From a virus: DNA of 37,062 bases. The notes beneath the pieces are model-generated. The model searched no databases, had not been told where the DNA came from, and worked only from the letters and a program-made list of their open reading frames with translations. The first letter of the stretch is position 1; each line of letters opens with the position of its first letter. The translations under genes and the position numbers were made by a program. The stretch is taken from positions 1-37,062 of IMG/VR virus record IMGVR_UViG_3300045944_000553; one strand, 5' to 3'. Below, piece after piece: positions 5,834-33,230 of the stretch.

Positions 5834-5878
5834 TTACTGGTAGCGGGGCTGGTACGTCGTGCCCAGCTTCACGGTGAG
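5834..5878 (-). pseudogene. Displaced 3' end of the SWIM zinc-finger gene
   Basis: Read leftward, this 45-base piece encodes [14 protein letters not shown] and a stop. The intact SWIM gene at 6541-6945 ends LTIKLGATYKPSYN: nine of fourteen residues match in register and both end at the same position. The HNH gene lies between the two. I read this as the original gene end, cut off by the insertion, while the intact gene now uses an AT-richer replacement end. The HNH reading frame runs 10 bases into it. Confidence 0.8.
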
Positions 5879-6465
5879 CATGGCGGCAATGGCTCTTCCT
5901 CGGGCAGATGTGTCCAGGTGCGACGCTCGATGATGTGGTCAATCGTGCTCTTATGCACGCCAAATTGTGCGGCGATTGTTGTGCGACGTTTATCGTATTG
6001 GTAGATGCGGCGGATTTCTTGCACTTGATCATCTGTAAGTTTGGCGCTGGCGTGTCGCTCTCCGCGTACCTGATATTCAGGATGTGTCGCTCGAAGTTGC
6101 TTGTGTATCTCTGAGCCAAGATAGCCGAGATGTCCTTTGGCTTTGGCATCCTGCACATTGTCATTCGGGGTGCCAGCCCATAGATGGTGAGGATTGACGC
6201 AGGTTTTGACATCACAACGATGACAGACATACAGGCCAGGCAACAGTTCACCATAGGTCATGATATAGATAAAACGATGTGCACGAATGCCCTGACGGTG
6301 TATATGAAAATTGCCATATCCGGATGAGAGGCTGGCTTGCCAGAGCCAACAACAGGCTGTGCAGGTGGCCCCATGGCCACAACGCGACACCTTGCTCCAG
6401 AAGTGCGCGAGCAGTTTCGTGGTATCGGAGAGGTCGAGTTTCCGTCTAGAATAGGTGCCAGCCAT
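5869..6465 (-). CDS. HNH homing endonuclease (GYG-HNH class)
   Basis: 198 residues. The HNH core spans about 49-105: [44 protein letters not shown]. The zinc-like CTACCW precedes it. A C-terminal helix-turn-helix typical of phage homing enzymes ([32 protein letters not shown]) probably reads the target site. The end (PLPPCSP) is translated from the interrupted SWIM gene remnant, so the original stop seems lost. ATG 6465 is chosen because the GAAAGGA ribosome site sits in a hairpin nine bases upstream. It has the same overall architecture as the gene at 19623-20249. Confidence 0.88.
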
Positions 6466-6549
6466 GGCCGCGTATCCTTTCATACGGGGTGATGGTCAGC
6501 AGGGCGAGGGGATTGCCGTCCTCTCGCCTTGCGTTATTCCCTAATTATA
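6466..6549 (-). promoter_or_regulatory. HNH promoter and two-hairpin RNA leader (6.5 kb)
   Basis: The minus-strand -10 TATAAT (6544-6549) lies inside the last codons of the SWIM gene, with TTGGTG 17 bases upstream as -35. The leader then forms a 6-bp stem GGCGAG/CTCGCC (6523-6528 with 6503-6508). A second hairpin CGTAT/ATACG (6482-6486 with 6471-6475) follows, with loop GAAAGG carrying the Shine-Dalgarno bases. The same order is seen in four other HNH leaders of the window. Confidence 0.75.
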
Positions 6550-7899: not shown

Positions 7900-8185
7900 C
7901 GACTTCACCCCCGATGATGCCCTGGACGCCGTGGCCCACCTGGCCCGTTCCCTTGACCGCGTGGCCACCAGTAGCGCGCGCGCGGCGGGGGCCAGTGAAC
8001 AGACGCTCGTCGTCGTGACCGACCTGGCCCGGACCCTCCGTCGGACCCTGCCGCTTGCCTGGCTGTGTACAGCCATCGCGCTCTTCACGCTCGCCTTCGT
8101 CGCCTGGTCCACGGTGCAGCTCGTGCGCGAAGGCCGCGTGCACCACGAGCGCATGCAGCGGGACCACCAGGTGCAGCAACGCTAG
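7892..8185 (+). CDS. Single-pass membrane protein
   Basis: 97 residues. A helical N-terminal segment (LDAVAHLARSLDRVATSS) is followed by one transmembrane segment (about 53-77) and a short charged, His/Gln-rich C-terminus. The ATG at 7892 overlaps the stop of the fusion gene by eight bases; the ribosome site is weak, so translation may depend on coupling. It lies at the end of the regulator cassette, just before the late-gene leader. Function unknown. Confidence 0.55.
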   Translation: MPDDFTPDDALDAVAHLARSLDRVATSSARAAGASEQTLVVVTDLARTLRRTLPLAWLCTAIALFTLAFVAWSTVQLVREGRVHHERMQRDHQVQQR

Positions 8186-8194
8186 CGCGCGGGC

Positions 8195-8223
8195 TTGACA
8201 CGGCGCCCGCCCCGCCGTACGCT
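8195..8223 (+). promoter_or_regulatory. Candidate rightward late promoter
   Basis: A perfect -35 TTGACA (8195-8200), a 17-base GC-rich spacer and -10 TACGCT (8218-8223, fits TAnnnT) lie just after the membrane protein gene. The next strong element downstream is a terminator at 8317-8379, about 90 bases beyond the expected transcript start, ahead of the terminase genes. The -10 box is weak, so this is tentative. Confidence 0.4.
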
Positions 8224-8316
8224 GCGGCGCACACGCACACCGCGGAGAGGGGCGCGCGCTCCGGAGCCCAACATTTCTATTTGACCTCCACGCTTTTGTC
8301 ATTTATCCTCTTGCGC

Positions 8317-8379
8317 AGCAGTAGTCTAGCGAGTGGTCGCGCCACGCCTGCGACCCCTTGAGAGGCTACTGCTTTTTTT
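8317..8379 (+). terminator. Two-tier hairpin terminator before the terminase operon
   Basis: The outer stem AGCAGTAG/CTACTGCT (8317-8324 with 8366-8373) is followed by seven T (8373-8379). An inner stem GGTCGC/GCGACC (8335-8340 with 8350-8355) sits within the loop. The gene-free stretch 8186-8489 also holds the candidate promoter at 8195-8223 and a GC hairpin CCGCCGG/CCGGCGG (8449-8455 with 8466-8472) just before the terminase small-subunit start. Nothing else is seen there. Confidence 0.75.
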
Positions 8380-8489
8380 GCCTTAGCCTCTCCTCGGCTA
8401 GCCTACCTGCACCTTCCTTTCAAGGGGAATCGTTAGATCCTGCTCGCGCCGCCGGTCTCCACATGCCGGCGGTGTCGGGGGACGCGCGC

Positions 8490-9078: not shown

Positions 9079-10632
9079 ATGGCCACCCTGCCCTTTCCCG
9101 TCACCCCCGGCGTGCAGCGCCTCGCCCGCGTCATGCTCGAGCGCCGCCAGGCCGCTGACCGCCTGCGGCAGTTCCAGCCGCTGCCCAAACAACTGCCCTT
9201 CATCCGCGCCGTCCTCACCGACGCGGCGCCGTGGGAGCACTGGTACTGCGCGGCGAATCGCGCCGGCAAGAGTGCCGCCGGGGCCTACTGCGGGGCCACG
9301 CTGGCGCGCTTCGGGCCGGACGATCCCCGGCCGGCCATCGGTCCGTCCGCCGTGGTCTATGACCGCGCGACGTCCGGGTGGGTGGTGGGCCCCGATTTCC
9401 CGACCCTGCGTGACGTGCTCATGCCGACCTATTTTGACAACGGCTATCTCTCGCCCACGCAGGACATCGGCCCGTTCATCCCGGCGAGTGAGATTGCGCA
9501 TTGGAGCTGGGACAGCCAGGTGCTCAAGCTGAAAAATGGGTCGCTCCTGGGCTTTAAGTCGAACGAACAGGACACCGTGAAATTCGCCGCCGCCGGGAAG
9601 GATTGGGTGCACTTCGACGAAGAGCCCAAGCGCACCGGGTATGAGGAAGTGACGCTGCGCGTCGCGGGTGGGCGCCACCTGCGCATCTTCGGCACGGCCA
9701 CGCTGTTGCCGCCGGAAGGCGTTGTGGGCGGTATTAGCTGGATTTATGACGACATCATCCAGCCGTGGCAAGCGCGCCAGCGGACCGATGTCGCGGTGTA
9801 CGGCGCGTCCATCTACGATAACCCCTACATCCTGCCCGAAGAGATTGCGCGGCTCGAAGCCCGCTACCCGGTGGGCTCGCTGCAACGGCGCATCCGGCTG
9901 GAAGGCGAGTGGCTGCCGGGGATGACGGGCGTGCCGGTGTACGGCTCCTTTGAACGTGAAGTCCATGTGAAACGACAGCCCGCGTTATCCCCGAATCGGC
10001 CCTTATTATTCGCCCTGGACTTCAATGTTGATCCGTTTGTGGGCATTGTGGGACAACAGGACCGCACACGTTTCTCCATCGTGCGAGAGTTCGTCTTAGA
10101 GCCTGGCTCTATTCCGCAGATGGTAGAGGCTTTCCGCAGTGCCTATCCAAGTCATGCACACGAAATATGGCTCTACGGCGACGCCACAGGTGGCGCGCGG
10201 CATGTGCAGGAAGGCAAAAGTGATTGGCGGGTGGTGTTAGAGTACTTCAAAACCTATCCGAGTCCCATTAAGTTGCGTATACCCGACGCCAATCCGCCGG
10301 TGCATGCGCGCATTAACGCCGTCAATATGGCGCTGATGGACGAATTTGGGGCGTCGCGGTTGTATATTGACCCTGCCTGTGTCGAACTCATTGCTGATCT
10401 TGAACGGGTTATTAGTGATGGCCGTGGTGGCATTCTGAAGAGCTACAGCCAACGCGACCCCTACAGTAAACGTACGCATTTATCGGACGCACTGGGGTAC
10501 CTCATCGCCCACGCCGCGCCGGTGGGATCGGCCTCGCTTGCCGGCGTCCGGCGGCGCCAACAGATCCCACGTCCCGCATATGGCAATCAGGTTCCAGGGA
10601 GGACCTCACAGGCTATCGCGCATCGCAGGTAA
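9079..10632 (+). CDS. terL: Terminase large subunit
   Basis: 517 residues, Terminase_6-like. The ATPase half has a Walker A-like CAANRAGKS (57-65) and a Walker B HFDEE (178-182). The nuclease half has ALDFNVD (312-318), GDATGG (about 364-369) and SDALGY near 470, the acidic residues of an RNase H-like fold. It packages DNA into the prohead. From about base 9955 on, the nuclease half is visibly less GC-rich than the ATPase half and uses codons such as TTA and ATT, a boundary that faces the HNH gene at 10613. The last 20 bases overlap that HNH gene on the other strand. Confidence 0.95.
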   Translation: MATLPFPVTPGVQRLARVMLERRQAADRLRQFQPLPKQLPFIRAVLTDAAPWEHWYCAANRAGKSAAGAYCGATLARFGPDDPRPAIGPSAVVYDRATSGWVVGPDFPTLRDVLMPTYFDNGYLSPTQDIGPFIPASEIAHWSWDSQVLKLKNGSLLGFKSNEQDTVKFAAAGKDWVHFDEEPKRTGYEEVTLRVAGGRHLRIFGTATLLPPEGVVGGISWIYDDIIQPWQARQRTDVAVYGASIYDNPYILPEEIARLEARYPVGSLQRRIRLEGEWLPGMTGVPVYGSFEREVHVKRQPALSPNRPLLFALDFNVDPFVGIVGQQDRTRFSIVREFVLEPGSIPQMVEAFRSAYPSHAHEIWLYGDATGGARHVQEGKSDWRVVLEYFKTYPSPIKLRIPDANPPVHARINAVNMALMDEFGASRLYIDPACVELIADLERVISDGRGGILKSYSQRDPYSKRTHLSDALGYLIAHAAPVGSASLAGVRRRQQIPRPAYGNQVPGRTSQAIAHRR

Positions 10633-11173
10633 GGAGCCATGGTTGCACAGGGCCTGGAATGGGCCGAACCCATTTCTTGCGGTTGCATGAGTGGCAGGAA
10701 GCTACGACGTTCCAGAGGGTGTGGTTGCCACCATCGATAATCGGTGTGATGTGGTCAATGCACAGGATGTGGGTGCCGTGATGACACTCTGCACATTCCG
10801 GCTTGTAGTACGGACAATAGGCGCAGACCCCATGGGCCATGGTGAGAACAAACACGCGTTGGCGTGCGGTAAAATCCCGCCGAGTAACGCGTTTATGGCG
10901 TGCACGACGTTGTTGTTGCGCATTGCGAGCGGCTTCAGGGTGGCGTTTTGCCGAGGCTTTTTTGATGGCTTTCCGCTCGGGGGTTGTATTCAAGACAAGG
11001 ATGTCATCGCGGTTGGCGTAGTAGTACGTCAGGCCCCGCTGGCGGCGATCCGCCAGGTGGCGTACGTAATTACGGCGATTGGATGCTTTGGTAGCTTCAG
11101 GATGAGCGGCACGCCATTGTCTCGCATAGCGGCGGCCGCGCGCACGACGCTTCTCAGGGTCTTTGTACGGCAT
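10613..11173 (-). CDS. HNH homing endonuclease (HPE-repeat class, 10.6 kb)
   Basis: 186 residues. The N-terminus is very basic and helical (MPYKDPEKRRARGRRYARQW), with repeated HPE/RAR units that probably bind DNA. The HNH core follows: CAYC, CAECH, CIDHITPIIDGGNHTLWNVVASCHSCNRKK. It belongs to the same family as the genes at 24673 and 31423. Those end in PVQPLLL, whereas this one reads PVQPWLL and then runs five codons further into terminase sequence, so its own stop was lost at the junction. GGAGG lies nine bases before ATG 11173, in a hairpin. It is antisense to the packaging genes and inserted between terL and the zinc-ribbon/portal pair. Confidence 0.88.
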   Translation of the reverse strand: MPYKDPEKRRARGRRYARQWRAAHPEATKASNRRNYVRHLADRRQRGLTYYYANRDDILVLNTTPERKAIKKASAKRHPEAARNAQQQRRARHKRVTRRDFTARQRVFVLTMAHGVCAYCPYYKPECAECHHGTHILCIDHITPIIDGGNHTLWNVVASCHSCNRKKWVRPIPGPVQPWLLTCDAR

Positions 11174-11302
11174 GAGGACCAACCTCCGGTTGTTGGTTCC
11201 GGTTTGGGTGTGTGGCAACGCGCCGGAAACGCGCTTTCGGGGTCGACTCCCTAGCCACACGCCGTGAGTGTAGCACACGGCTGTGTATGTGTAATTATAC
11301 CA
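11174..11302 (-). promoter_or_regulatory. HNH promoter and structured RNA leader (11.2 kb)
   Basis: The minus-strand extended -10 TGG-TATAAT lies at 11302-11294. The leader holds an outer stem GTGTGGC/GCCACAC (11254-11260 with 11210-11216). It encloses a GGG/CCC arm and a CGCG/CGCG hairpin with loop TTTCCGG (11219-11233), giving a three-way junction. Last comes the Shine-Dalgarno hairpin ACCAAC/GTTGGT (11192-11197 with 11178-11183), whose loop AACCGGAG contains GGAG. The leader at 32 kb has the same fold with compensatory changes. Confidence 0.8.
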
Positions 11303-11316
11303 AATTGGCGTAGGTA

Positions 11317-11502
11317 ATGGCACAACTTCCTGATCACGACTCGTGTAAAAAGTGCGGCGATGACCTCTTCGGCTTCGTGCGAGCGATCGGCGTGTGCGGC
11401 AGGTGTATGCAAATGCCACCACTGCCCACGTCCGTGCCCAGGCCGACGTATACCCTGTACACCCCCAGGGCCGTGAAGGAGCGCGTGTGGCAGAGACCCT
11501 AG
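11317..11502 (+). CDS. Small zinc-ribbon protein
   Basis: 61 residues. Two knuckles, CKKC (10-13) and CGRC (27-30), form a likely zinc ribbon; the C-terminal half is Pro-rich and basic. It overlaps the portal start by 16 bases, so it is read together with it. The ribosome site is poor (GTAGGT). The HNH cassette lies just upstream and may have replaced its natural leader; the first codons are more AT-rich than the rest. Function unknown. Confidence 0.6.
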   Translation: MAQLPDHDSCKKCGDDLFGFVRAIGVCGRCMQMPPLPTSVPRPTYTLYTPRAVKERVWQRP

Positions 11503-13598
11503 CGATGGCGGCCATGGGCGATCCAGGCCTCGACGTCGCGCCTGCGATGCCGATGCTGGAGGAGGACCTCCCCCTGGAGGAGGAGCCGCTCCTCACGGAT
11601 GCCCAGGTGCTGCGGGCGGTCAGGGCCTACAAGGACGAAGCAAGGCAGGCCAGAGAGACCCGTATCAGAAGAAACGAACAAAATTGGTTGGCGTACTACG
11701 GCGAGAGTGACTACTCCAGTAAACTCCCCGGCCAATCCCGCCAGGTCGTGCCCAAAGTCTCCGAAGCCGTCGAATCGTTAGCGGCGTTTGTGAAGCGTTC
11801 GTTGACCGAATTTGGCTCGTGGTTCTCGGTGAAAGTCCCGACCGCCTCCCCCATCCCCGAGACGGTCGTGCAAAAGGCGATTCAGGTGGTCCTGGACCAG
11901 CAGCAGCAACTCGATGAAGCCCGCCTGAATTTCCCCACGCTCATGTCCGATGCCATGAAGGTGGGCAGCCTCGGCTCGCTGATGATCTTCAAGGTGAGTC
12001 ACTACCCGTACCTGAAGCGGCGCTTTGTGGCCGAGCGCGGGATGCCGCTCCCGCCGGTCCCTGGCCTGCCACCCGTCCCCCCGCCTCCCGAGCAGCTCGT
12101 GCCCATCGAGCAGCCCATGTCCGCCGTGGTGATCGACCTCATCCCGCCGGAAGACTACTACCCCGACCCCTCTGGCCGAGGCCTGTACGTCATTCACACG
12201 GTCGAGCGCGACCTGGAGGAAGTGCAGACGATGGCCGACCAGGGCGCCTATGATCCGGAGGTCGTCGCCCAGATCGCCAGCGATTTCCAGGAGCAGGAGT
12301 TCCAGAGCTTTCGCGCCTGGTCGCGCAACCAGGACCAGAGCAGTCCGCCCGCCTTCCGTAAGAAGGTGGTGCTTGATGAGTGCTGGGCGACGTTTCTGGA
12401 CGACACCGGCCGGGCCGTGCTGCGCAACGCCGTAGCGACCATTGCCAATGATCACTACGTCATCCGCAAGCCCGTCCCCAATCCGTACTGGCACCAGCAA
12501 TCGCCCTTCGTCGCCGCGCCGCTCATTCGCATTCCCTTCAGCGAGTGGCACAAGGCCGTACAGGACAATGCCGTGGCGCTCAACAACGCGCAGAACGAAC
12601 TCCTGAACCTGATTATCGACGGCGGCTACGAGGCGGTCTGGGGCGTGCGGCAGCTCCATCTCGACTGGCTGGAGGACCCGACCCAGGTGCAGGACGGCAT
12701 CGCCCCTGGGGATACGCTCCTCTTGCGCCAGGAGGTGCCGGCGAACGCCAAAGTGCTGGAGCGCGTCACCACCGGCGGCGTGCCGCAGGATGCGCTGGCG
12801 GTGTACAACATCCTCGACCGCGAGTATAACGCGGCCGCCATGGTCAATGATGTGAAGATGGGCATGCTCCCCGAGAAGGCCGTGAAAGCCACCGAGATCG
12901 TCGCCTCTGAGCAGCACCAGGCCAGCACGTTCGATGGCATCGTGAAGGACATCGAGGACACCCTCATCGAGCCGCTGCTGTGGAAAATCTGGCTGACCGT
13001 GCTGCAATTCCTCGATGATTTCAGCGCCAGCGAGGTGATTGCGGCGATTGGCGAGCGCTGGGCCTACGTCCTCTCGTCCATGTCGCCGGCGCAGCGCTAC
13101 GCGACGTTCGCGGGGGTGTGTCAGTTCCAGGCCAGCGGCTTGAGCGCGACGCTCGCCCGGGGCAAGGACCTGCAAAAACTGCTGGCGTTCGTCGATGTGG
13201 GCATGCGCTCGCCGTTTTTGGCGCAGACGTTCCTCGAGAACTACAGCGCCAAGAAGTATCTCGATCGCATCCTCCAGACGATGAACCTGGACCCGGAGAG
13301 CTTAGAGCTGTCGCCCGAGGAAAAGGTGAAGCAGATGTCCCAGATGGCGCAGCAGCAGGCCATGGGCCAGCAGGCGCAACCAGGGGGTGGTCCGGAGCAA
13401 CCCGGCGAGGGCATCCCTGGCGTCGGCCCCGGCACGCCCCAGGGGGGCAGGAGCATCCAGGGCAGCCCCATGCCCCCCGAGGGACGCGGGGCGCCAGGCC
13501 AGGGGCCAGGGCCCGCCGGACCGCCAGGGGGCCAGCCGAGTGTGCCGATGCAACCGCAGCCGGCGGCGCCACAGCAACCACCAGTTTTTCGAGGCTAG
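11487..13598 (+). CDS. Portal protein
   Basis: 703 residues. Position after terminase, size and composition fit a podovirus-type portal (head-tail connector). Supporting stretches are RRNEQNWLAYYGESDYSS, the long helical stem region and ALNNAQNELLNLIIDGGYEAVWG. A Pro/Gly/Gln-rich low-complexity tail covers about the last 80 residues. The twelve-subunit ring it should form is the DNA gate and terminase dock. The GTG at 11487, with GAAGGA six bases upstream, is preferred; the in-frame ATG at 11394 lies inside the zinc-ribbon gene. Confidence 0.85.
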   Translation: MAETLAMAAMGDPGLDVAPAMPMLEEDLPLEEEPLLTDAQVLRAVRAYKDEARQARETRIRRNEQNWLAYYGESDYSSKLPGQSRQVVPKVSEAVESLAAFVKRSLTEFGSWFSVKVPTASPIPETVVQKAIQVVLDQQQQLDEARLNFPTLMSDAMKVGSLGSLMIFKVSHYPYLKRRFVAERGMPLPPVPGLPPVPPPPEQLVPIEQPMSAVVIDLIPPEDYYPDPSGRGLYVIHTVERDLEEVQTMADQGAYDPEVVAQIASDFQEQEFQSFRAWSRNQDQSSPPAFRKKVVLDECWATFLDDTGRAVLRNAVATIANDHYVIRKPVPNPYWHQQSPFVAAPLIRIPFSEWHKAVQDNAVALNNAQNELLNLIIDGGYEAVWGVRQLHLDWLEDPTQVQDGIAPGDTLLLRQEVPANAKVLERVTTGGVPQDALAVYNILDREYNAAAMVNDVKMGMLPEKAVKATEIVASEQHQASTFDGIVKDIEDTLIEPLLWKIWLTVLQFLDDFSASEVIAAIGERWAYVLSSMSPAQRYATFAGVCQFQASGLSATLARGKDLQKLLAFVDVGMRSPFLAQTFLENYSAKKYLDRILQTMNLDPESLELSPEEKVKQMSQMAQQQAMGQQAQPGGGPEQPGEGIPGVGPGTPQGGRSIQGSPMPPEGRGAPGQGPGPAGPPGGQPSVPMQPQPAAPQQPPVFRG

Positions 13599-16878: not shown

Positions 16879-17826
16879 ATGCCCCATGATACAACATGTC
16901 CGATTTGTGGTACAGCCATGCGTGTTCCTGATCGTACTACACGTGATCAGGCGCATTATTGTTCACGGGCGTGTGCCAATAAGGCACGGCGCAAACATAT
17001 CCCGCTCGAAGGGACGTGTAAAGTGTGTGGCGCTGTCTTTGTCTACGTGGAAAATCCTGCATTGCCCGGTCGCGGCCAGTATTGTAGTCGTGCCTGTGCC
17101 AATGAGGGCCAACGGGTGCATCGTACTGCATTGTGTGTGCACTGTGGCACCACGTTTCCCCTGTTGTACAAAACGCCGCCAAAGCCCGGCAGTGGGCAAT
17201 ATTGTTCGATGACCTGTGCGAGGGCTGCACGGACGGAGAAAGTACGGGTGGATCGTATCTGCCTCGTCTGTGAGCAACCATTCTGGGTCTACGAAAGTCA
17301 GTTGCGCCGGGAAGGGCCTGGGCAAAAAGGTGTCTTTTGCTCGCGCGCATGTGCGGTAAAAGGCCGCCAGAAGAACACCTATAACAATACCACGCGCCGG
17401 CGGACGGCGACGTATCAGTATCATCGCCGTGGGTATGTTATGGCCTATGCCCCAGATCATCCAAGTGTGCAGGAACGGATCAAGCGTGGTAGTCGGCATT
17501 ACTATGTGATGGAGCACCGGCTTGTAATGGAACAGGCCCTCGGACGATATTTGCATCCCTGGGAGAATGTGCATCACAAGAATGGCGTGCGCCATGATAA
17601 TCGTCTGGAGAATCTCGAAGTGTGGGTGAAAGCGCAACCTGCAGGGCAGACGAATGAGTATCTCGATTATGTGCTCATCCTCTTGCGGCAATTGCGAGAG
17701 GCAGGGATACGCCCGGAGGGATGGCCAGGCACGCAAGCTCCAGGGCCGTTTGTTGTCGCCATACCCGCACCTGTCCATCCTGAGCAACTCGGCTTTCTGC
17801 TGCCCCAACCGGAGGGCACGCACTAG
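16879..17826 (+). CDS. HNH endonuclease with four N-terminal zinc ribbons
   Basis: 315 residues. Four similar zinc ribbons in tandem use C7/C10/C28/C32, C47/C50/C69/C73, C86/C89/C109/C113 and C128/C131/C154/C158, each ending CS..CA or CA. An HNH_3-type core follows ([45 protein letters not shown], about 186-249) and then a Pro-rich tail. AAAGGAGG lies before the ATG. It is the only HNH gene in the same direction as the virion genes and lacks the hairpin leader. It lies between the capsid gene, whose 3' end is AT-rich, and a pair of paralogous head genes. Confidence 0.85.
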
Positions 17827-19622: not shown

Positions 19623-20249
19623 TCAGTTGTCAGGGACATGTCGCCAGGTCTTGCGGTGGATGATGGAGGAAATGGCGCTATGCGATACGCCGAACATGTC
19701 GCCAATGGCTTGTTGACTCAAGGTCCCATTGCGCTGTAGATGACGGATTTCCCTGACCTGCTCCGCAGTCAGTTTGGCGAATGTGGTCTTTTCTCCGCGA
19801 GGGACTCTTTCAGGATGAAGGCGAGCGCCACTCTTTGCACCACGGGGGATACGTTCTGGGCGCGTATGCACCCAATGACGGCCTTTGCGCACCATGTCTT
19901 GCATATTGTCGGTGCGTGTGCCAAGGAACAGGTGGACAGGGCGGACACACGCTGGTGTATCGCAGCGGTGGAGCACCCACAATCCATCAGGAATAGGGCC
20001 AAAGGTCAGTTCATAGGCGAGGCGATGGACCAGGATGGCTTTCGAGTCAACAGTTATGGTGCCATAGCCAGCCGTACTGTGCGAGCCCATCCACAGCCAG
20101 CAGGTGTCTGTAATCTTGACCCGCGCCCACAAGCGTTCGACAAGGCTCATATGTTTGAGCCTGGCAAAGTGGGAAAGTTTCCACGCCCGACCCGGCGCGC
20201 ATACCTCTTGGCAACCGCAGGAACACCATCTATCTTTGTTCTCAGCCAT
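19623..20249 (-). CDS. HNH homing endonuclease (GYG-HNH class, 19.6 kb)
   Basis: 208 residues. It has an N-terminal Cys cluster (CSCGC), then the HNH core GYGTITVD, VHRLAYELTFG, VLHRCDTPACVRPVHLFLGTRTDNMQD, and a C-terminal homing-type HTH (FAKLTAEQVREIRHL, FGVSHSAISSII, KTWRHV). It is the same class as the gene at 5869-6465. It is antisense to the virion genes, in the gap between two small rightward genes, and appears to break neither. ATG 20249 follows GAGG, which sits in a hairpin loop. Confidence 0.88.
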   Translation of the reverse strand: MAENKDRWCSCGCQEVCAPGRAWKLSHFARLKHMSLVERLWARVKITDTCWLWMGSHSTAGYGTITVDSKAILVHRLAYELTFGPIPDGLWVLHRCDTPACVRPVHLFLGTRTDNMQDMVRKGRHWVHTRPERIPRGAKSGARLHPERVPRGEKTTFAKLTAEQVREIRHLQRNGTLSQQAIGDMFGVSHSAISSIIHRKTWRHVPDN

Positions 20250-22674: not shown

Positions 22675-24243
22675 GTGGCTTTCGCGGGCGTCGTGTGTGA
22701 AATCCCCTTGGCGCAGACCGGCGTTGTGGGTGTCGAGAACCCAACTATTATGCTGCCGTCTGACCTCGTGGATGCAAACTATGTGTCCTATTATGGACAA
22801 GTCTTAAGAAAATACGGCGGGCAAAGCCCCTATACTCCTACGCCCCTGGGTGCGACCATCCTCAACGGCTGGGACTTTTTTCCGACCTCGACCGTGCAGC
22901 GGGAGATTGTCTTCCTCGGCACCGGCGTGGTGAAAAAGGACAGCGGCACGGGCACCTTCCCGGACACGCTCGCGAGCGGCCTCGCTGTGAGTCAGCCGAG
23001 CCAGTTTGTGGAGGCCGGTGCCGAAGCCACGGGGCGCCCGCGCAAGCTCTTCCTGTTCACCGGAGGCAGTCCCGTGCAGGTCCTGGCGGGCGATGGCGCC
23101 ACCATGACCGCGCTCAGTAAGCCCGCCGCCGACTGGACGGGCGCGAACCAGCCGTTGTGCGGCGCTGTCCACGCCAATCGCCTGTGGGCCGCTGGGAACC
23201 TGAGTGATCCGCACCGCGTGTACTACTCGCAGGTGACGGATCACGAGGATTTTGTCGATACGACCAACGCGGGCTCGCTGACGGTGTTTCCCGGCGAAGG
23301 GGATCGCATTACTGGCCTGTTCTCCTACCGCGGCGTGCTGATTGTCGGCAAAGCGCCACGCGGCATCTATGTGATCGACACGACCGGCATTCAGCCGACG
23401 ACGTTTGGCGTGGATCGGCTGTCGCGCGGCATCGGCCTGGCCACCGGCAACGCCATGACGCAGGTGGATAACGATGTGCTCCTGCTCGACACGGCGGGGA
23501 ATATGCAGGCGCTGTCGGCCGTGCAGGCGTTAGGCGATCTGACCACGCTGACGTTTGGCCAGGAGGCGGCGCTGGCGAATTATCTCACCGGCAAGCTCAA
23601 CACGGCGCAGGTCCACTGGGCGCGCATGGTGTACTACGGACTCAAGCGTGAGGTGCACTGTGCGGTCCCGCTCACCGGGGAGACGACGAACACGGGCCGC
23701 CTGGTGGTCGATTATAACGGCCCCAGCAGGCCCAGGTTTCGCCTCGCACGCCCCGAGTCGTGTGTCGCGCTGTGGCTCAAGCATCTGGGCTTGGGCGGCC
23801 CCCTGAAGCCGTTACGTGGGGGGACGGACGGACTGGTCTGGGAGCTCGATCAGGACACGCCCTCGCCAGCCGGGGTGCCAGGGAGTAGCGCGCGCGTGCT
23901 CACGCCGCAAATGGACATGGGACATCTTGATCCAGGGTTGGCGGCGCGGGTGAAGCAGGGGTTTTACCTGGAGCTGGTGACGGCGCTGCTCGGTCCGTGG
24001 AACCTGGATATCGACGTGTACTGGGACGGGCGCAAGCACCAGCAACTGGCCTTCACGATGCGCAACGCCCACGGCTTGCCGACGGATCAGGCGGTGCATC
24101 TCCAGCAGCGCTTGCTCGGGTCAGGACGGCGGGTCCAGTTTGACGTGAAGCAGACGGTGGGGGGACAGAGCTTTGCGGTCTATCGTTTATACATGGCGTT
24201 TAGCGCGCTCGACCACAGGCCCAATGAGGTGTACTGGACGTGA
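22675..24243 (+). CDS. Tail protein (nozzle/hub-like)
   Basis: 522 residues. Beta-rich with repeating strand pairs, e.g. GAVHANRLWAAGNLSDPHR, YYSQVTDHEDFVDTT, ITGLFSYRGVLIVGKAPRGI, as in the beta-propeller-like tail nozzle (tubular B-type) proteins of short-tailed phages. This role is inferred. GTG 22675, with GGAG nine bases upstream, is the best start. Bases about 22739-22850 (TILPSDLVDANYVSYYGQVL-like region) are clearly more AT-rich than the rest, including TTA and AGA codons, with no HNH gene next to them. It overlaps the following GNAT gene by four bases. Confidence 0.6.
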   Translation: MAFAGVVCEIPLAQTGVVGVENPTIMLPSDLVDANYVSYYGQVLRKYGGQSPYTPTPLGATILNGWDFFPTSTVQREIVFLGTGVVKKDSGTGTFPDTLASGLAVSQPSQFVEAGAEATGRPRKLFLFTGGSPVQVLAGDGATMTALSKPAADWTGANQPLCGAVHANRLWAAGNLSDPHRVYYSQVTDHEDFVDTTNAGSLTVFPGEGDRITGLFSYRGVLIVGKAPRGIYVIDTTGIQPTTFGVDRLSRGIGLATGNAMTQVDNDVLLLDTAGNMQALSAVQALGDLTTLTFGQEAALANYLTGKLNTAQVHWARMVYYGLKREVHCAVPLTGETTNTGRLVVDYNGPSRPRFRLARPESCVALWLKHLGLGGPLKPLRGGTDGLVWELDQDTPSPAGVPGSSARVLTPQMDMGHLDPGLAARVKQGFYLELVTALLGPWNLDIDVYWDGRKHQQLAFTMRNAHGLPTDQAVHLQQRLLGSGRRVQFDVKQTVGGQSFAVYRLYMAFSALDHRPNEVYWT

Positions 24244-24701
24244 GCCCCACACGCGATTTTCCCCCACCCCCGCCGGTCCGGCAGACGGCGCCCATCGTGT
24301 ACCGCCTGGCGACGCAGGCCGACTATGCCCGCTGCCACGTCCTGGCGCGGGAGGTCGGGTACGACGGTGGCAGCTACGGGTGGCCCACCATGCTCGTCGA
24401 GCGTGATGGGACCCTGCTGGGCTTTGCGGCGAGTCGGTACGATGGCACGCGCCTGGTCCTGGGGCCGGTGGTGATGCAGCCGCAGCTCCGCACGAAAGGG
24501 CTGCTCATGCTGCGGGCCGTGTTGGGGCTCGAAGCGGTCTATACGCAGGCGGGGATTACCTCATACCTGCTCGGCTCCAGTGACCCTGGCGTGCAGCGGG
24601 TCATCGAGGCGTGGGGGTGTCCACGGATCGGCACGCAAGGCGATGAGGTGTGGTATCAGCGCGATCTGACACCTACAGCAACAGTGGCTGGACAGGTTTG
24701 A
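24240..24701 (+). CDS. GNAT-like acetyltransferase, C-terminus altered by insertion
   Basis: 153 residues. The fold order fits GNAT: IVYRLATQADYARCHVLAREV, the beta strands MLVERDGTLLGFAASRYDG and LVLGPVVMQPQLRTKGL (the usual acetyl-CoA site region), then RVIEAWGCPRIG and VWYQRDL. GTG start overlapping the tail gene (GTGA). The reading frame runs on for about ten codons into the 3' end of the HNH gene at 24673, so the original stop was probably lost at insertion. In tail modules such enzymes are small domain proteins of unknown substrate. Confidence 0.7.
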   Translation: MSPTRDFPPPPPVRQTAPIVYRLATQADYARCHVLAREVGYDGGSYGWPTMLVERDGTLLGFAASRYDGTRLVLGPVVMQPQLRTKGLLMLRAVLGLEAVYTQAGITSYLLGSSDPGVQRVIEAWGCPRIGTQGDEVWYQRDLTPTATVAGQV

Positions 24702-25350
24702 GGACTGGGCCGGTCTTTTTCTTGGAGTTGCAGGAGAGACACGCGGGAACCACGTTGTGCTTCGTGTGACTGCCGCCTTTACTGAGCGGCGTGAGATGGT
24801 CCTGCGTGAGCCGTTGCATCTGGCGACCACAATAGACGCAGCAGTGGCTGTAAGCGATCTTGATTTCTTCCCACTGTGCAGCGGTGAGGTCGCATACTGG
24901 AGCATTCTTTTTACGGGCTTTGTGGCTTTTGACATAGGCACGATTTTTGTCAGGATTGGCCTTGAACCATGCTTGATGACGCGCGGCTACTTGTGCCTTA
25001 TGCATGGCGTGGTAGAGACGACGGGTTGTGCGTCGTTGTTCGGGATGGGCCTCGGCCCACGCCTTGGCGCGCGCGATTTGTTCCTCACGGTGTGCAGCAT
25101 AATGTGCACGACGTAAGGCACGGTAGTGCTCTGCATGCGTCGTATGATAGCGGTGATCTTTGGCACGTACTTGTGCGAGATGTTCCTGGCGATAGGTGGC
25201 ATCATAGGCTTGACAATGGGACGCATTGGCAGCGCGCCAGGCACGGGTTTGTGTGTTGAGCCGTTCTTTGTGGCGCGCATAGTACTTCGCCCAATAGGCA
25301 GCTTTCTGGGCTTTGCGTTCTTCGGGCGTGCGTTGAGACTTGCGTGGCAT
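24673..25350 (-). CDS. HNH homing endonuclease (HPE-repeat class, 24.7 kb)
   Basis: 225 residues. The N-terminus is a long basic helical region with repeats (SQRTPEERKAQKAAYWAKYY, AHREEQIARAKAWAEAHPEQ). The HNH core follows: CCVYCGRQM, LTQDHLTPLSKGGSHTKHNVVPACLSCNSKKK, ending PVQPLLL as in the gene at 31423. ATG 25350 follows AGGAGGTGTT, which sits in a hairpin. It is antisense to the tail genes and inserted between the GNAT gene, whose stop it removed, and a gene whose usual start codon is missing. Confidence 0.88.
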   Translation of the reverse strand: MPRKSQRTPEERKAQKAAYWAKYYARHKERLNTQTRAWRAANASHCQAYDATYRQEHLAQVRAKDHRYHTTHAEHYRALRRAHYAAHREEQIARAKAWAEAHPEQRRTTRRLYHAMHKAQVAARHQAWFKANPDKNRAYVKSHKARKKNAPVCDLTAAQWEEIKIAYSHCCVYCGRQMQRLTQDHLTPLSKGGSHTKHNVVPACLSCNSKKKTGPVLKPVQPLLL

Positions 25351-25464
25351 AACACCTCCTATACGGTGTAGTGGAGTTGGGTGCTGATGTATAGGCACCA
25401 GCGTTGCCAGAGCTGATCAGGCTCTACCCAACCCGGTGCCAATGTAGCATATACTATGATTATA
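25351..25464 (-). promoter_or_regulatory. HNH promoter and structured RNA leader (25.4 kb)
   Basis: The minus-strand -10 TATAAT (25464-25459) has GGG before it. The leader folds as GGCACC/GGTGCC (25435-25440 with 25394-25399). Nested inside are GTTG/CAAC (25429-25432 with 25403-25406) and AGAGC/GCTCT (25421-25425 with 25409-25413). Then comes the Shine-Dalgarno hairpin ACACC/GGTGT (25365-25369 with 25352-25356), loop GTATAGGA. The order is as in the other four leaders, with different stem sequences. Confidence 0.78.
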
Positions 25465-25563
25465 CCCTATCATAGTCTTAAATGAAAGGGTACTACAATT
25501 TCAAAATCCAAGCCACCACGTCCATCGGCCCAGGAGCTGTCGCTCCTGGAGTCGCAGAAATCG

Positions 25564-26742
25564 ATGCTTGATTTGCAGCGGCAGCAACTGCAAAAACAAC
25601 AGTCACAGCAAGATTTGTTAGCCCCTGTCATGTACGAAACCATGGGGATCAGACCCCAGTACAATGATCAGGGGCAGATCACTGGCTATTCCAGATTTGA
25701 GACCCCGGAACAGGCCCTCTATAAAGAGCAAGTGGAGGCCATGCGGCGCCAGCAGCCCATGCAGGAGCGGCTCCAGGAGCAGTACCTGACGCTGGCGGAG
25801 CAGCAGGCCGAGTGGCAGCGCCAGCAGCAGGCGTGGCAGGCGGAACTCGCCCCGCAGCTCAAAGAGCAGACCCTCCAGCAGACGGCCATGCAGCAGCAGA
25901 TGCTCGAGTATCAGCAGGCGCAGCTCGCCCAGGAGCAGGACCGCCAGCGCCTGCAACCGCTGCTCTATGAGGCCTCCGGCGTGCGGCCCATCTATGACGA
26001 GAGCGGGAAAATCACGTCGTTTGCCCTCACCGAAGAGGCGCAAGCGCGCAAGGACTACGAGAATCAGCTCCTCGAACATCAGCGCAAGGCGCTCGCGGGG
26101 GAACTCCCGGTGGACCCGACGCTCGAGCGTGCGCTGACGGAAGGGGAGCAGCAGCTCCGGGCGCAGCTCCAGGCGCAGCTCGGGACGGGGTATGAGACCA
26201 GTACGCCGGGGATTCAGGCCCTCGAACAGTACCGCCAGCGGGCCGCCGAAGCCCGCAGCACCGTGGCGCATGGGCAACTCACGAGCGGGCAGTCGCTCCT
26301 CCAGACGCAGACCGCGATGAACCAGGAGCAGATGGCGCGCGCGACCCGGGGCGGTACGGGCCTGATCGGCAACTACGGCTTCCAACCGGTCTCCTTTGGT
26401 GCGCCCGTGCAGGCGCCGACGCAGAGTCTCTTCCAGGCCGGGAGTCCAGCGGCCGCGGCGACCGGGTATCAGGGCGCCTTACAAGGGCAATTCGGCACGC
26501 TTGGGGAATATGCGAAGCTGGCGCAGGGCTTTGGCCAGATGGCCGGCGGGCTGGGGCTGCAGCGGCAACGGGATGCGGCCCTGGAGCAACAGTACCGCCA
26601 GGAGTATAGCGGCCAGATGGGGCAGATCGGCGCCGCAGCCGGGGCGATCATTGGCTCGGTGTTCGCGCCCGGGGTCGGGACGGCGGCGGGGGCGAGCCTG
26701 GGCGGCCTGGCGGGCGGGTATGCCGGCCGCAGCATGTATTGA
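25564..26742 (+). CDS. Internal virion protein-like, Gln-rich coiled coil
   Basis: 392 residues from the first ATG. Long Gln/Glu-rich helices (QRQQLQKQQSQQDLLAP, QQQMLEYQQAQLAQEQ) alternate with two similar units, YETMGIRPQYNDQGQITGY and YEASGVRPIYDESGKITSF. The C-terminus is a Gly-zipper-like hydrophobic stretch (GAIIGSVFAPGVGTAAG). This suggests an ejected protein that contacts membrane. The frame is open back to 25483, and ATT at 25498, seven bases after AAAGGG, would add SKSKPPRPSAQELSLLESQ, a typical start for such proteins, so the true start may be this ATT. The first 200 bases are AT-rich. Confidence 0.75.
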   Translation: MLDLQRQQLQKQQSQQDLLAPVMYETMGIRPQYNDQGQITGYSRFETPEQALYKEQVEAMRRQQPMQERLQEQYLTLAEQQAEWQRQQQAWQAELAPQLKEQTLQQTAMQQQMLEYQQAQLAQEQDRQRLQPLLYEASGVRPIYDESGKITSFALTEEAQARKDYENQLLEHQRKALAGELPVDPTLERALTEGEQQLRAQLQAQLGTGYETSTPGIQALEQYRQRAAEARSTVAHGQLTSGQSLLQTQTAMNQEQMARATRGGTGLIGNYGFQPVSFGAPVQAPTQSLFQAGSPAAAATGYQGALQGQFGTLGEYAKLAQGFGQMAGGLGLQRQRDAALEQQYRQEYSGQMGQIGAAAGAIIGSVFAPGVGTAAGASLGGLAGGYAGRSMY

Positions 26743-31404: not shown

Positions 31405-31425
31405 TATGGCCTTACCAAAATTCTA
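31405..31425 (+). pseudogene. Displaced original start of the fibre gene
   Basis: These 21 bases encode MALPKFY, exactly the first seven residues of the intact fibre protein at 32166. Three codons differ and all three changes are synonymous (GCC/GCT, TTA/CTT, TAC/TAT). The HNH stop codon overlaps its last three bases. An AAAG ribosome-site-like sequence lies upstream. I read it as the original start, cut off when the HNH cassette entered after codon 7 and brought its own copy of the start. Confidence 0.8.
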
Positions 31426-32034
31426 CAACAGCAACGGCTGTACGGGAATCGGGGGCGGGCCAGTGTACTTCCGGTTATTGCACGACTTGCAGGCCCCGAT
31501 GACATTGTGCAGCGTGTGGGCACCGCCTTTGGAGAGGGCCAAAATGTGGTCCTGGGTTAATTTGCCCTTACAGCGCTTGCCGCAGTACGCGCATCGGTGG
31601 TCCTGGTGGGCCTGGATGAGCAGCCATTGCTCGTGGGTCAGTGTGGCATCGGCACCATGCATGCGTGCACGACGACGGTTGGCATACACCACATGCAGGT
31701 CAGGGTGTGCCTGATAGTAGGCTTTGTTGTAGGCATTGTTTTGCTCACGGCGGTTGAGACGATTGCGCTGTTGGCGCACCTTATCTTCTTCAAGATGTGC
31801 AGTATAGTAACGTTGATTCCTGGCGTGAGTAATCTCTGGATGGGCCTGACGATACGCACGATTATAGGCCAGAATCGCTGCCTTATGGCGTTGCTTAAAG
31901 CGTTTGCGCGTTTCCTTGATCTGTGCGGCATTCTTTTGACGCGAGGCAGCATCACGGGCATGGCAGAGTTCAGGATGTGCTTGACGAAAGGCTTTTTGCT
32001 GCGCACGTCGAGCCGCAGGGTCTTTGTATGGCAT
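31423..32034 (-). CDS. HNH homing endonuclease (HPE-repeat class, 31.4 kb)
   Basis: 203 residues. The basic N-terminus has repeated units (MPYKDPAARRAQQKAFRQA, AYRQAHPEITHARNQRYY). The HNH core follows: RCAYCGKRC, LTQDHILALSKGGAHTLHNVIGACKSCNNRK, ending PVQPLLL. It is closely related to the genes at 10613 and 24673. ATG 32034 follows GGAGG, located in a hairpin. It is antisense to the fibre gene, which it interrupts after codon 7; the fibre frame is restored on the far side. Confidence 0.9.
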   Translation of the reverse strand: MPYKDPAARRAQQKAFRQAHPELCHARDAASRQKNAAQIKETRKRFKQRHKAAILAYNRAYRQAHPEITHARNQRYYTAHLEEDKVRQQRNRLNRREQNNAYNKAYYQAHPDLHVVYANRRRARMHGADATLTHEQWLLIQAHQDHRCAYCGKRCKGKLTQDHILALSKGGAHTLHNVIGACKSCNNRKYTGPPPIPVQPLLL

Positions 32035-32143
32035 GGGTCCATCCTCCGTCGATGGGTCCGGTTGTGTGTGAGGCAACGCGCCGGAAACGCGCTTATCGGG
32101 TTGCAATCCCTAGCCTCACGGCTGCAAGTATACTCTAAGTATA
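32035..32143 (-). promoter_or_regulatory. HNH promoter and structured RNA leader (32.1 kb)
   Basis: The minus-strand -10 TATACT (32143-32138) is preceded by AGGG. Outer stem GTGAGGC/GCCTCAC (32113-32119 with 32068-32074), an inner GGG/CCC arm (32108-32110 with 32098-32100) and the hairpin CGCG/CGCG with loop TTTCCGG (32077-32091). The Shine-Dalgarno hairpin is CCATC/GATGG (32051-32055 with 32039-32043) with loop GACGGAG. Compared with the leader at 11.2 kb, the outer stem and the Shine-Dalgarno stem both differ by paired changes. Confidence 0.82.
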
Positions 32144-32165
32144 CCCTATGACTGGATAAACTACC

Positions 32166-33230
32166 ATGGCTCTTCCAAAATTCTATAAAGTTTGCCAAGA
32201 TCAAAACGGAAATATAGTACCACAAGTACTATGTAGCGTCTTTAACCATGGCACAGCCGTGCTGGCGTCTCTCTACAACGATGACGCGGGGACCGTGCCC
32301 CTCAGCAATCCCATGACCAGCGATGCGCAGTACGGCTCGTTCAAGTTCTACGTGAATCCCGGCCATTATGATCTCACGTTCACCAAGCCGGGTTACACCT
32401 TTGAGCCGATCGACGATATGCAGGTGCCGGCCGATACCGTGACGCTGGGCACCATGGCGACGCAGAACGCCAATGCGGTGGCGATTACGGGGGGCACGAT
32501 TGCGCTGCTGGCGGCGGCTGGTGGGGCCGTTCGGGTGGACGATGCGGGGGCCAGTGCGCAGGTGGCATTGCGCAGTCTCGTCACTGTCGGCGCGAGTAAA
32601 TATAACGTGTTGGCTGACGGGACGGCGCAAAACACCTTTATTGGCAACGTCGGCCTGGGCACTTTCACCCCGAGCTACCCGCTCGATGTGACCGGCCAGG
32701 CGCGCATCACGGGGACGCTGGGGATTGGGACGGCGCCGAGTGCCAGTTATCACCTCTACATGGTGCGCAATAAAGCCAGCGTGCATGGCCTCGTCTTTCA
32801 GCCGACTGGCAGCGATGCGGGGACGAATGAGGTCATGTTCCTCAACGTTGCTGGGACGATTGTTGGCAGCATTCAGAGCACCGCCGCCGCGACAAGCTTC
32901 AACACCTCATCCGATGCCCGCCTCAAACACGCCATCGCCCCGCTCAGCGGCTCGCTCGCCGTGCTCGCCGCGCTGCGTCCCGTGGCGTTCAGATGGAACG
33001 CGGATGACAGCGTGGGGCATGGCTTCCTCGCGCATGAATTACAGGCGACGATTCCCGAGGCTGTCAGTGGCCTGCCAGACGAGGTCAACCCCGATGGCTC
33101 GGTGAAACCACAACAGGTGGATCACTCGCGCTTAGTGCCGTGGCTCACGGCGGTCTGTCAGGAGCTGGCGCAGCAGGTGCAGGTGCTGACGCAGCGGGTG
33201 AGTACGTTGGAAGAACAACTCGGTCTCTAG
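32166..33230 (+). CDS. Tail fibre with S74 intramolecular chaperone
   Basis: 354 residues. The N-terminal domain (about 1-90) is beta-rich (SVFNHGTAVLASLYNDDAGT, FKFYVNPGHYDLTFTKPGY) and should attach to the tail. The middle is a repeated-strand shaft. The C-terminus is a Peptidase_S74 chaperone (SSDARLKHAI, with S249 and D250; LRPVAFRWN, GFLAHELQATIPEAV), ending in a coiled coil. It trimerises the fibre and then cuts itself off. The first 80 bases are AT-rich against a GC-rich body and lack a strong ribosome site, consistent with a replaced 5' end. Confidence 0.88.
   Translation: MALPKFYKVCQDQNGNIVPQVLCSVFNHGTAVLASLYNDDAGTVPLSNPMTSDAQYGSFKFYVNPGHYDLTFTKPGYTFEPIDDMQVPADTVTLGTMATQNANAVAITGGTIALLAAAGGAVRVDDAGASAQVALRSLVTVGASKYNVLADGTAQNTFIGNVGLGTFTPSYPLDVTGQARITGTLGIGTAPSASYHLYMVRNKASVHGLVFQPTGSDAGTNEVMFLNVAGTIVGSIQSTAAATSFNTSSDARLKHAIAPLSGSLAVLAALRPVAFRWNADDSVGHGFLAHELQATIPEAVSGLPDEVNPDGSVKPQQVDHSRLVPWLTAVCQELAQQVQVLTQRVSTLEEQLGL

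Follow-up and report, generated by a model that had tools for sequence, protein, structure and literature searches.

The virion structural gene at 25498..26742 (plus strand) of an uncultured phage, represented by IMG/VR record IMGVR_UViG_3300045944_000553, very probably starts at the ATT codon at 25498..25500 (plus strand), judging by comparison with related genes, and would then encode a protein of 414 amino acids. The whole of this record (positions 1 to 37,062) was analysed and is here referred to as the window. Comparison with relatives places the start at this codon, indicates that the loss of ATG is shared by the clade to which the window belongs, and separates this loss from the HNH endonuclease gene upstream. 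It is considered likely that the ATT start is an inherited trait of the clade that acts as a weak, IF3-sensitive throttle on the synthesis of the virion protein.

The stop codon of the gene occupies 26740-26742. An earlier note on this DNA, made from its letters alone, had taken the frame to be open back to 25483; the long open frame is real, but its boundary is 25486, since 25483..25485 (plus strand) is an in-frame TGA. The same note had pointed to AAAGGG seven bases before ATT, to the lack of ATG, GTG, and TTG before 25564, to a poor ribosome site before the ATG found there, and to an AT-rich beginning, all of which hold. AAAGGG, the Shine-Dalgarno site of the proposed start, lies exactly at 25485..25490 (plus strand), i.e., 7 nt ahead of ATT. 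No canonical start is in frame across 25486-25563, and the first one, the ATG at 25564..25566 (plus strand), follows 22 codons after ATT. The one Shine-Dalgarno-like sequence upstream of this ATG, GGAG, is distant (~11-12 nt away), and the GC content is 0.43-0.53 over ~25400-25700 and 0.56 by 25750, versus 0.65-0.72 deeper in the virion gene. Between the TGA at 25483 and the second residue of a KSKPP block that is conserved in the clade lie seven codons (AAG GGT ACT ACA ATT TCA AAA), among which ATT, aligned with the ATG of the family, is the sole plausible initiator. The 22 codons at 25498..25563 (plus strand) are skipped by standard gene calling.

Close relatives in IMG/VR were found on three contigs, namely, L002 (80% identity over the aligned protein) and L003 and L004 (64%); three differently designed scans gave these same contigs and no further close clade members in IMG/VR. 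L003 and L004 represent two separate metagenomes. At the position aligned with ATT, L002 has TTG (7887) behind AAAGGAG, with the N-terminus LGKSKPPKASRQELQLMESQ, and both L003 and L004 have ATC (7842) behind AAGGAG, with the N-terminus IKKSKPPKPSASEIAL. The window residues that follow (ATT), SKSKPPRPSAQELSLLESQ, are homologous to both, and the clade shares a gap-free pattern of a start codon, one variable residue, and then KSKPP. The conserved residues are encoded by differing codons (TCC, AGT, or TCG for Ser; AAA or AAG for Lys; CCA or CCG for Pro), which fits a translated sequence. L003 and L004 also contain in-frame canonical ATG/GTG codons further upstream (ATG 7794), and these are without good Shine-Dalgarno sites.

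Searches with the neighbouring virion gene, followed by searches with a conserved part of the virion gene itself, yielded a wider family. A tree of 24 proteins groups the window, L002, L003, and L004 in a single clade (support 100/100), and these four are the only members without an ATG start; the other 20 all carry ATG at the aligned position, preceded by a Shine-Dalgarno site (MGGGVKVPGPSQEE is an example of their N-termini), and ATG is likewise found there in some other relatives outside the tree. In the ATG relatives, the distance from the start to a P-S/T motif is mostly 9-12 residues (13-14 in a few), into which the ATT fits. A profile of the first ~62 residues, built from ATG-starting relatives only, matched the window frame with E=3.7e-21; the alignment begins at the Ser right after ATT, and other frames gave no score. 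This profile homology was used in place of dN/dS for the 22-codon extension, because synonymous sites were saturated in the comparison with L003 and the stretch is too short for a useful ratio. The alignment with homologues, which the earlier note had named as the place where the extra 22 residues might turn out to be lacking, gave an N-terminus of this length in the homologues examined. The view that these residues look like a natural N-terminus, and that ATT is a possible start, is borne out as well: by homology, the extra 22 residues are the true conserved N-terminus of the protein, and, by the same comparison, the clade as a whole has lost ATG. As the TTG of L002 is an ordinary alternative start, AT[T/C] is present in just two lineages, and ATT, ATC, and TTG need several separate substitutions, whatever the ancestral codon was.

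No relatives were found in GTDB genomes. Among GenBank phages, the window protein had no match, and a distant relative used as query gave no more than a short match at its C-terminus, to a Bradyrhizobium phage. The window frames were also scanned against 11 contigs, and the rows, mostly out-of-frame shadow ORFs, were judged by eye; among the matches listed, the virion gene was the only evident coding frame with homology clearly past its first canonical start, and no clear case of another near-cognate start in the same phage was seen.

It is improbable that translation starts at ATG 25564 and that the upstream 22 codons are the remnant of an N-terminus that was lost after insertion of the HNH gene. 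This codon is the first canonical in-frame start, with GGAG upstream (-5.9 kcal/mol, spacing 11), and a Met at its position is also present in L002 (7953) and L013; however, L003 and L004 have no aligned Met, the position serves as start in no family member examined, and the 22 codons retain family residues via different synonymous codons. A protein begun at Met 25564 would continue LDLQRQQ... and would lack SKPPRPSAQELSLLESQK, the peptide encoded upstream. The extension contains the family motif P-x-P-S as well as 12 residues at the beginning of the first predicted helix. In the AlphaFold model, which is poor overall (pTM 0.29), this helix comprises residues 11-48 at fair confidence; since ATG 25564 corresponds to residue 23, a start at this codon would cut the helix and remove the N-terminal motif. 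The remnant reading is also contradicted by the loss of ATG in relatives without the HNH gene, and ATG 25564 is rejected as the main start.

Very little probability is given to a sequence or assembly error by which a true ATG was recorded as ATT: the two codons differ by one base and ATT at 25498 is seen in one assembled record only, but relatives of the same clade are without ATG too, and the two independent metagenomes agree on ATC. Some other entry to the frame, i.e., a frameshift from the out-of-frame ATG 25482 (MKGYYNFK...), readthrough of TGA 25483, or splicing of an intron that holds the HNH gene, is extremely unlikely. ATG 25482 does lie a few codons upstream in a different frame, and HNH genes are often intron-borne; yet this ATG has no evident Shine-Dalgarno site, is followed by no known slippery sequence, and is absent from relatives, while no Rfam match worth considering was obtained for an intron or structured RNA around the HNH gene, which is located on the opposite strand. 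No tRNA genes were found either.

The HNH gene (24673..25350, minus strand) is a free-standing endonuclease gene of 225 aa, recognised by Pfam HNH (E=2.1e-11) and PHROG HNH families. An acetyltransferase-like gene upstream is convergent with it, and the virion gene points away from it. TATAAT at 25459..25464 (minus strand), noted by eye, is a possible -10 element of an HNH promoter, and a scan for sigma-70 promoters and terminators over 24600-25700 returned none. According to the earlier note, the HNH cassette took the place of the gene start and left a non-standard initiator; ATT would then be an accident of the junction. Several observations would suit this proposal: the AT-rich cassette ends just ahead of the Shine-Dalgarno site, this site is the weakest in the family, and another HNH gene of the window occupies the start of the gene for a protein beginning MALPKFY and is flanked by copies of this start. 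Nevertheless, it is quite unlikely, given that ATC occupies this position in L003 and L004, where no HNH gene precedes the virion gene (an ORF with an HECRH motif and a weak eCIS-core match overlaps the start there), and that L002 has TTG behind a third, unrelated small ORF. Since the upstream DNA differs in every version and ATG is missing in all of them, the comparison indicates that the loss of ATG is independent of HNH. The cassette was probably inserted later, directly upstream of the virion gene, and it may have weakened the ribosome site without creating the unusual start. Alignment with two other HNH cassettes of the window, made for the borders, gave just a 21-nt promoter-like match, and the relatives recovered included no version of the window's own allele that lacks HNH.

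Approximately six HNH-like genes are present in the 37-kb record, namely, at 5869-6483 (-), 10613-11596 (-), 16879-17826 (+), 19623-20249 (-), 24673-25350 (-), and 31423-32106 (-), of which the gene at 24673 was profile-checked and the rest were judged by eye. They are mostly on the strand opposite to the virion genes, and most are preceded by a GTATAAT-like sequence (GTATAAT/GTATACT). The 5' flanks of two of them (11140-11261 and 32001-32120) share 82% identity over ~120 bp, a similarity which suggests that a cassette spread within the phage. At the MALPKFY gene, similar copies of the gene start, ATGGCCTTACCAAAATTCTA and ATGGCTCTTCCAAAATTCTA, are found on both sides (31406-31430; 32150-32200) of the HNH gene (31423-32034, minus strand), as if the latter had been inserted just inside the gene and the start had been rebuilt. 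The acetyltransferase-like gene (24240-24701) overlaps the 3' end of the neighbouring HNH gene (from 24673), and its final residues (about TPTATVAGQV) appear to be derived from the HNH cassette when compared with L003. In L002 (2626-12201), replication-type genes, not tail genes, precede the virion gene and the SLT-bearing gene next to it, which, in terms of gene order, is strong mosaicism upstream of the virion-gene start codon.

Predicted Shine-Dalgarno duplexes amount to -4.5 kcal/mol in the window, -8.7 kcal/mol in L002, and -8.8 kcal/mol in L003/L004, with a spacing of 5-6 nt, and the window duplex is the weakest of the 28 loci compared. Equally good sites were found at 15% (window), 2.8% (L002), and 2.6% (L003/L004) of random positions of the same contigs; because ~15% of random positions match the window site, the Shine-Dalgarno sequence alone is not strong evidence for the start, and the aligned position is. 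A hairpin is predicted over the Shine-Dalgarno site at 25463..25492 (plus strand; arms 25463-25473 and 25482-25492; -11.0 kcal/mol), and one equally stable was obtained in 12 of 500 shuffles. The predicted pairing partner of the Shine-Dalgarno sequence is UACCCU, in the HNH promoter region. An alternative predicted hairpin at 25453..25476 (plus strand), with perfect 8-nt arms (25453-25460 and 25469-25476; -10.8 kcal/mol), is mutually exclusive with the first, and two such near-equal states could, according to these predictions, serve as a switch of the ribosome site. A near-cognate start without a strong Shine-Dalgarno sequence may give very little protein output. The further suggestion of the earlier note, namely, reduced translation of this gene, is thus plausible in view of the weak duplex and the predicted hairpin, and it is taken here as something that we infer and not as an observation.

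The window protein is rich in Gln and for the most part helical, and its C-terminus gave a weak match to a glycine zipper. PHROG matches to phrog_6121 (virion structural) were obtained for 12 of the 23 family members and to phrog_4287 (DNA ejection) for 3, and the window protein itself matched neither at E<=0.01. In the next gene, a match to a transglycosylase SLT domain falls slightly short of the Pfam cut-off (E=0.00054). The gene order accordingly reads tail tube genes (named by analogy, on weak PHROG virion/tail matches), virion gene, and transglycosylase-bearing internal protein, which resembles the order of the T7 internal virion genes (gp14-like core proteins) by analogy only, with no membership claimed. 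On the weak PHROG matches of relatives and this gene order, the product is probably a low-copy virion protein of the DNA-ejection type. A PDB sequence search with the window protein gave no match, and a fold search with the low-confidence helical model gave no useful structural match. An internal duplication at 25615-26050, LLAPVMYETMGIRPQYNDQGQITGY and LQPLLYEASGVRPIYDESGKITSF, is common to the clade, and distant relatives apparently contain one copy; according to sequence and model, the duplicated module consists of a helix and then a short Y...G-x-R/K-P-x-Y...G-x-I-T stretch. The near-identical L003 and L004 differ in the copy number of a 23-residue repeat, QQPTQEALQQQYLTLAQQQAEYA, around 8001-8400.

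The first two bases of AUU and AUC can pair with the initiator anticodon, and the third is mismatched. With reconstituted components, nothing but Watson-Crick pairing was accepted at the first two positions, and IF3 discriminated against weak pairs at the third (PMC10158994). Start codons outside ATG/GTG/TTG are subject to repression by IF3 (PMC5472188), and in Staphylococcus aureus, conserved AUU/AUA starts reduce expression (PMC13009471). As near-cognate starts are discriminated against by IF3, the clade gene would be translated at a low rate. In the explanation favoured here, AAAGGG (25485-25490) would direct the ribosome to ATT 25498, which the initiator tRNA would read as fMet; a small phage clade would have lost the ATG of the family and inherited ATT, ATC, or TTG at the same position; and the near-cognate start would act as a translational throttle that matches a low synthesis rate to the need for a low-copy protein. 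We infer the sensitivity to IF3, the role in dosage, and the order in which the events took place. It is a more speculative and rather doubtful possibility that the lineage was selected to keep a near-cognate, IF3-sensitive AUU/AUC/UUG on the virion gene through deep divergence and repeated upstream replacement, as dosage control of an ejection component, and that the phage carrying HNH adds to this control through an RNA hairpin with two states, formed in part by the HNH promoter region, which would open and close the ribosome site. The ATT/ATC/TTG of the clade versus the ATG of its relatives would offer a natural series on whether the proportions of virion parts are set through start-codon strength. 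Gene calling that allows only ATG, GTG, and TTG as starts drops 22 conserved residues in the window gene, and comparison of N-termini across metagenomic phages can recover such non-canonical starts.

A limited literature search turned up no phage virion gene described as having a conserved near-cognate start. Non-canonical starts as such are of an already known kind, e.g., those of infC, pcnB, and sigR. To our knowledge, the experimentally characterised conserved cases are few (infC, pcnB, sigR, cvfC1, and ccpN) and almost all cellular. An internal AUU start was reportedly described by Nivinskas and co-workers in the T4 baseplate gene 26, which would likewise be a phage structural gene using AUU; there, however, AUU gives a shorter internal product, whereas the ATT of the window is the proposed full-length start in a clade that is non-ATG throughout. 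The infC gene, encoding IF3, starts with ATT in E. coli and ATC in Streptomyces (PMC5472188) and with AUA in S. aureus (PMC13009471), and thus resembles the phage gene in having an AT[T/C/A] start, in the variation of the near-cognate codon by lineage, and in a start that limits expression (PMC5472188, PMC13009471). It differs in that its start serves autoregulation by its own product, whereas the phage gene encodes a virion protein with no known feedback. The sigR gene of Streptomyces has a GTC start (GTT in two species) that is repressed by IF3, and here as well the balance between a protein and its partner depends on a non-canonical start that is conserved (PMC5472188); sigR is, however, a cellular regulator with experimental proof, unlike the phage gene, which is known from sequence comparison. 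Single genes held low by AUU/AUA, i.e., pcnB (AUU) of E. coli and cvfC1 (AUU) and ccpN (AUA) of S. aureus (PMC13009471), are chromosomal, and the Staphylococcus ones have strong extended Shine-Dalgarno motifs, in contrast to the weak one of the window. Lastly, the tail spike gene 21 of SPP1, a phage for which the re-annotated starts are AUG, GUG, and UUG, is also a virion gene with a non-AUG start, but its UUG (PMC6316719) is a standard alternative start.
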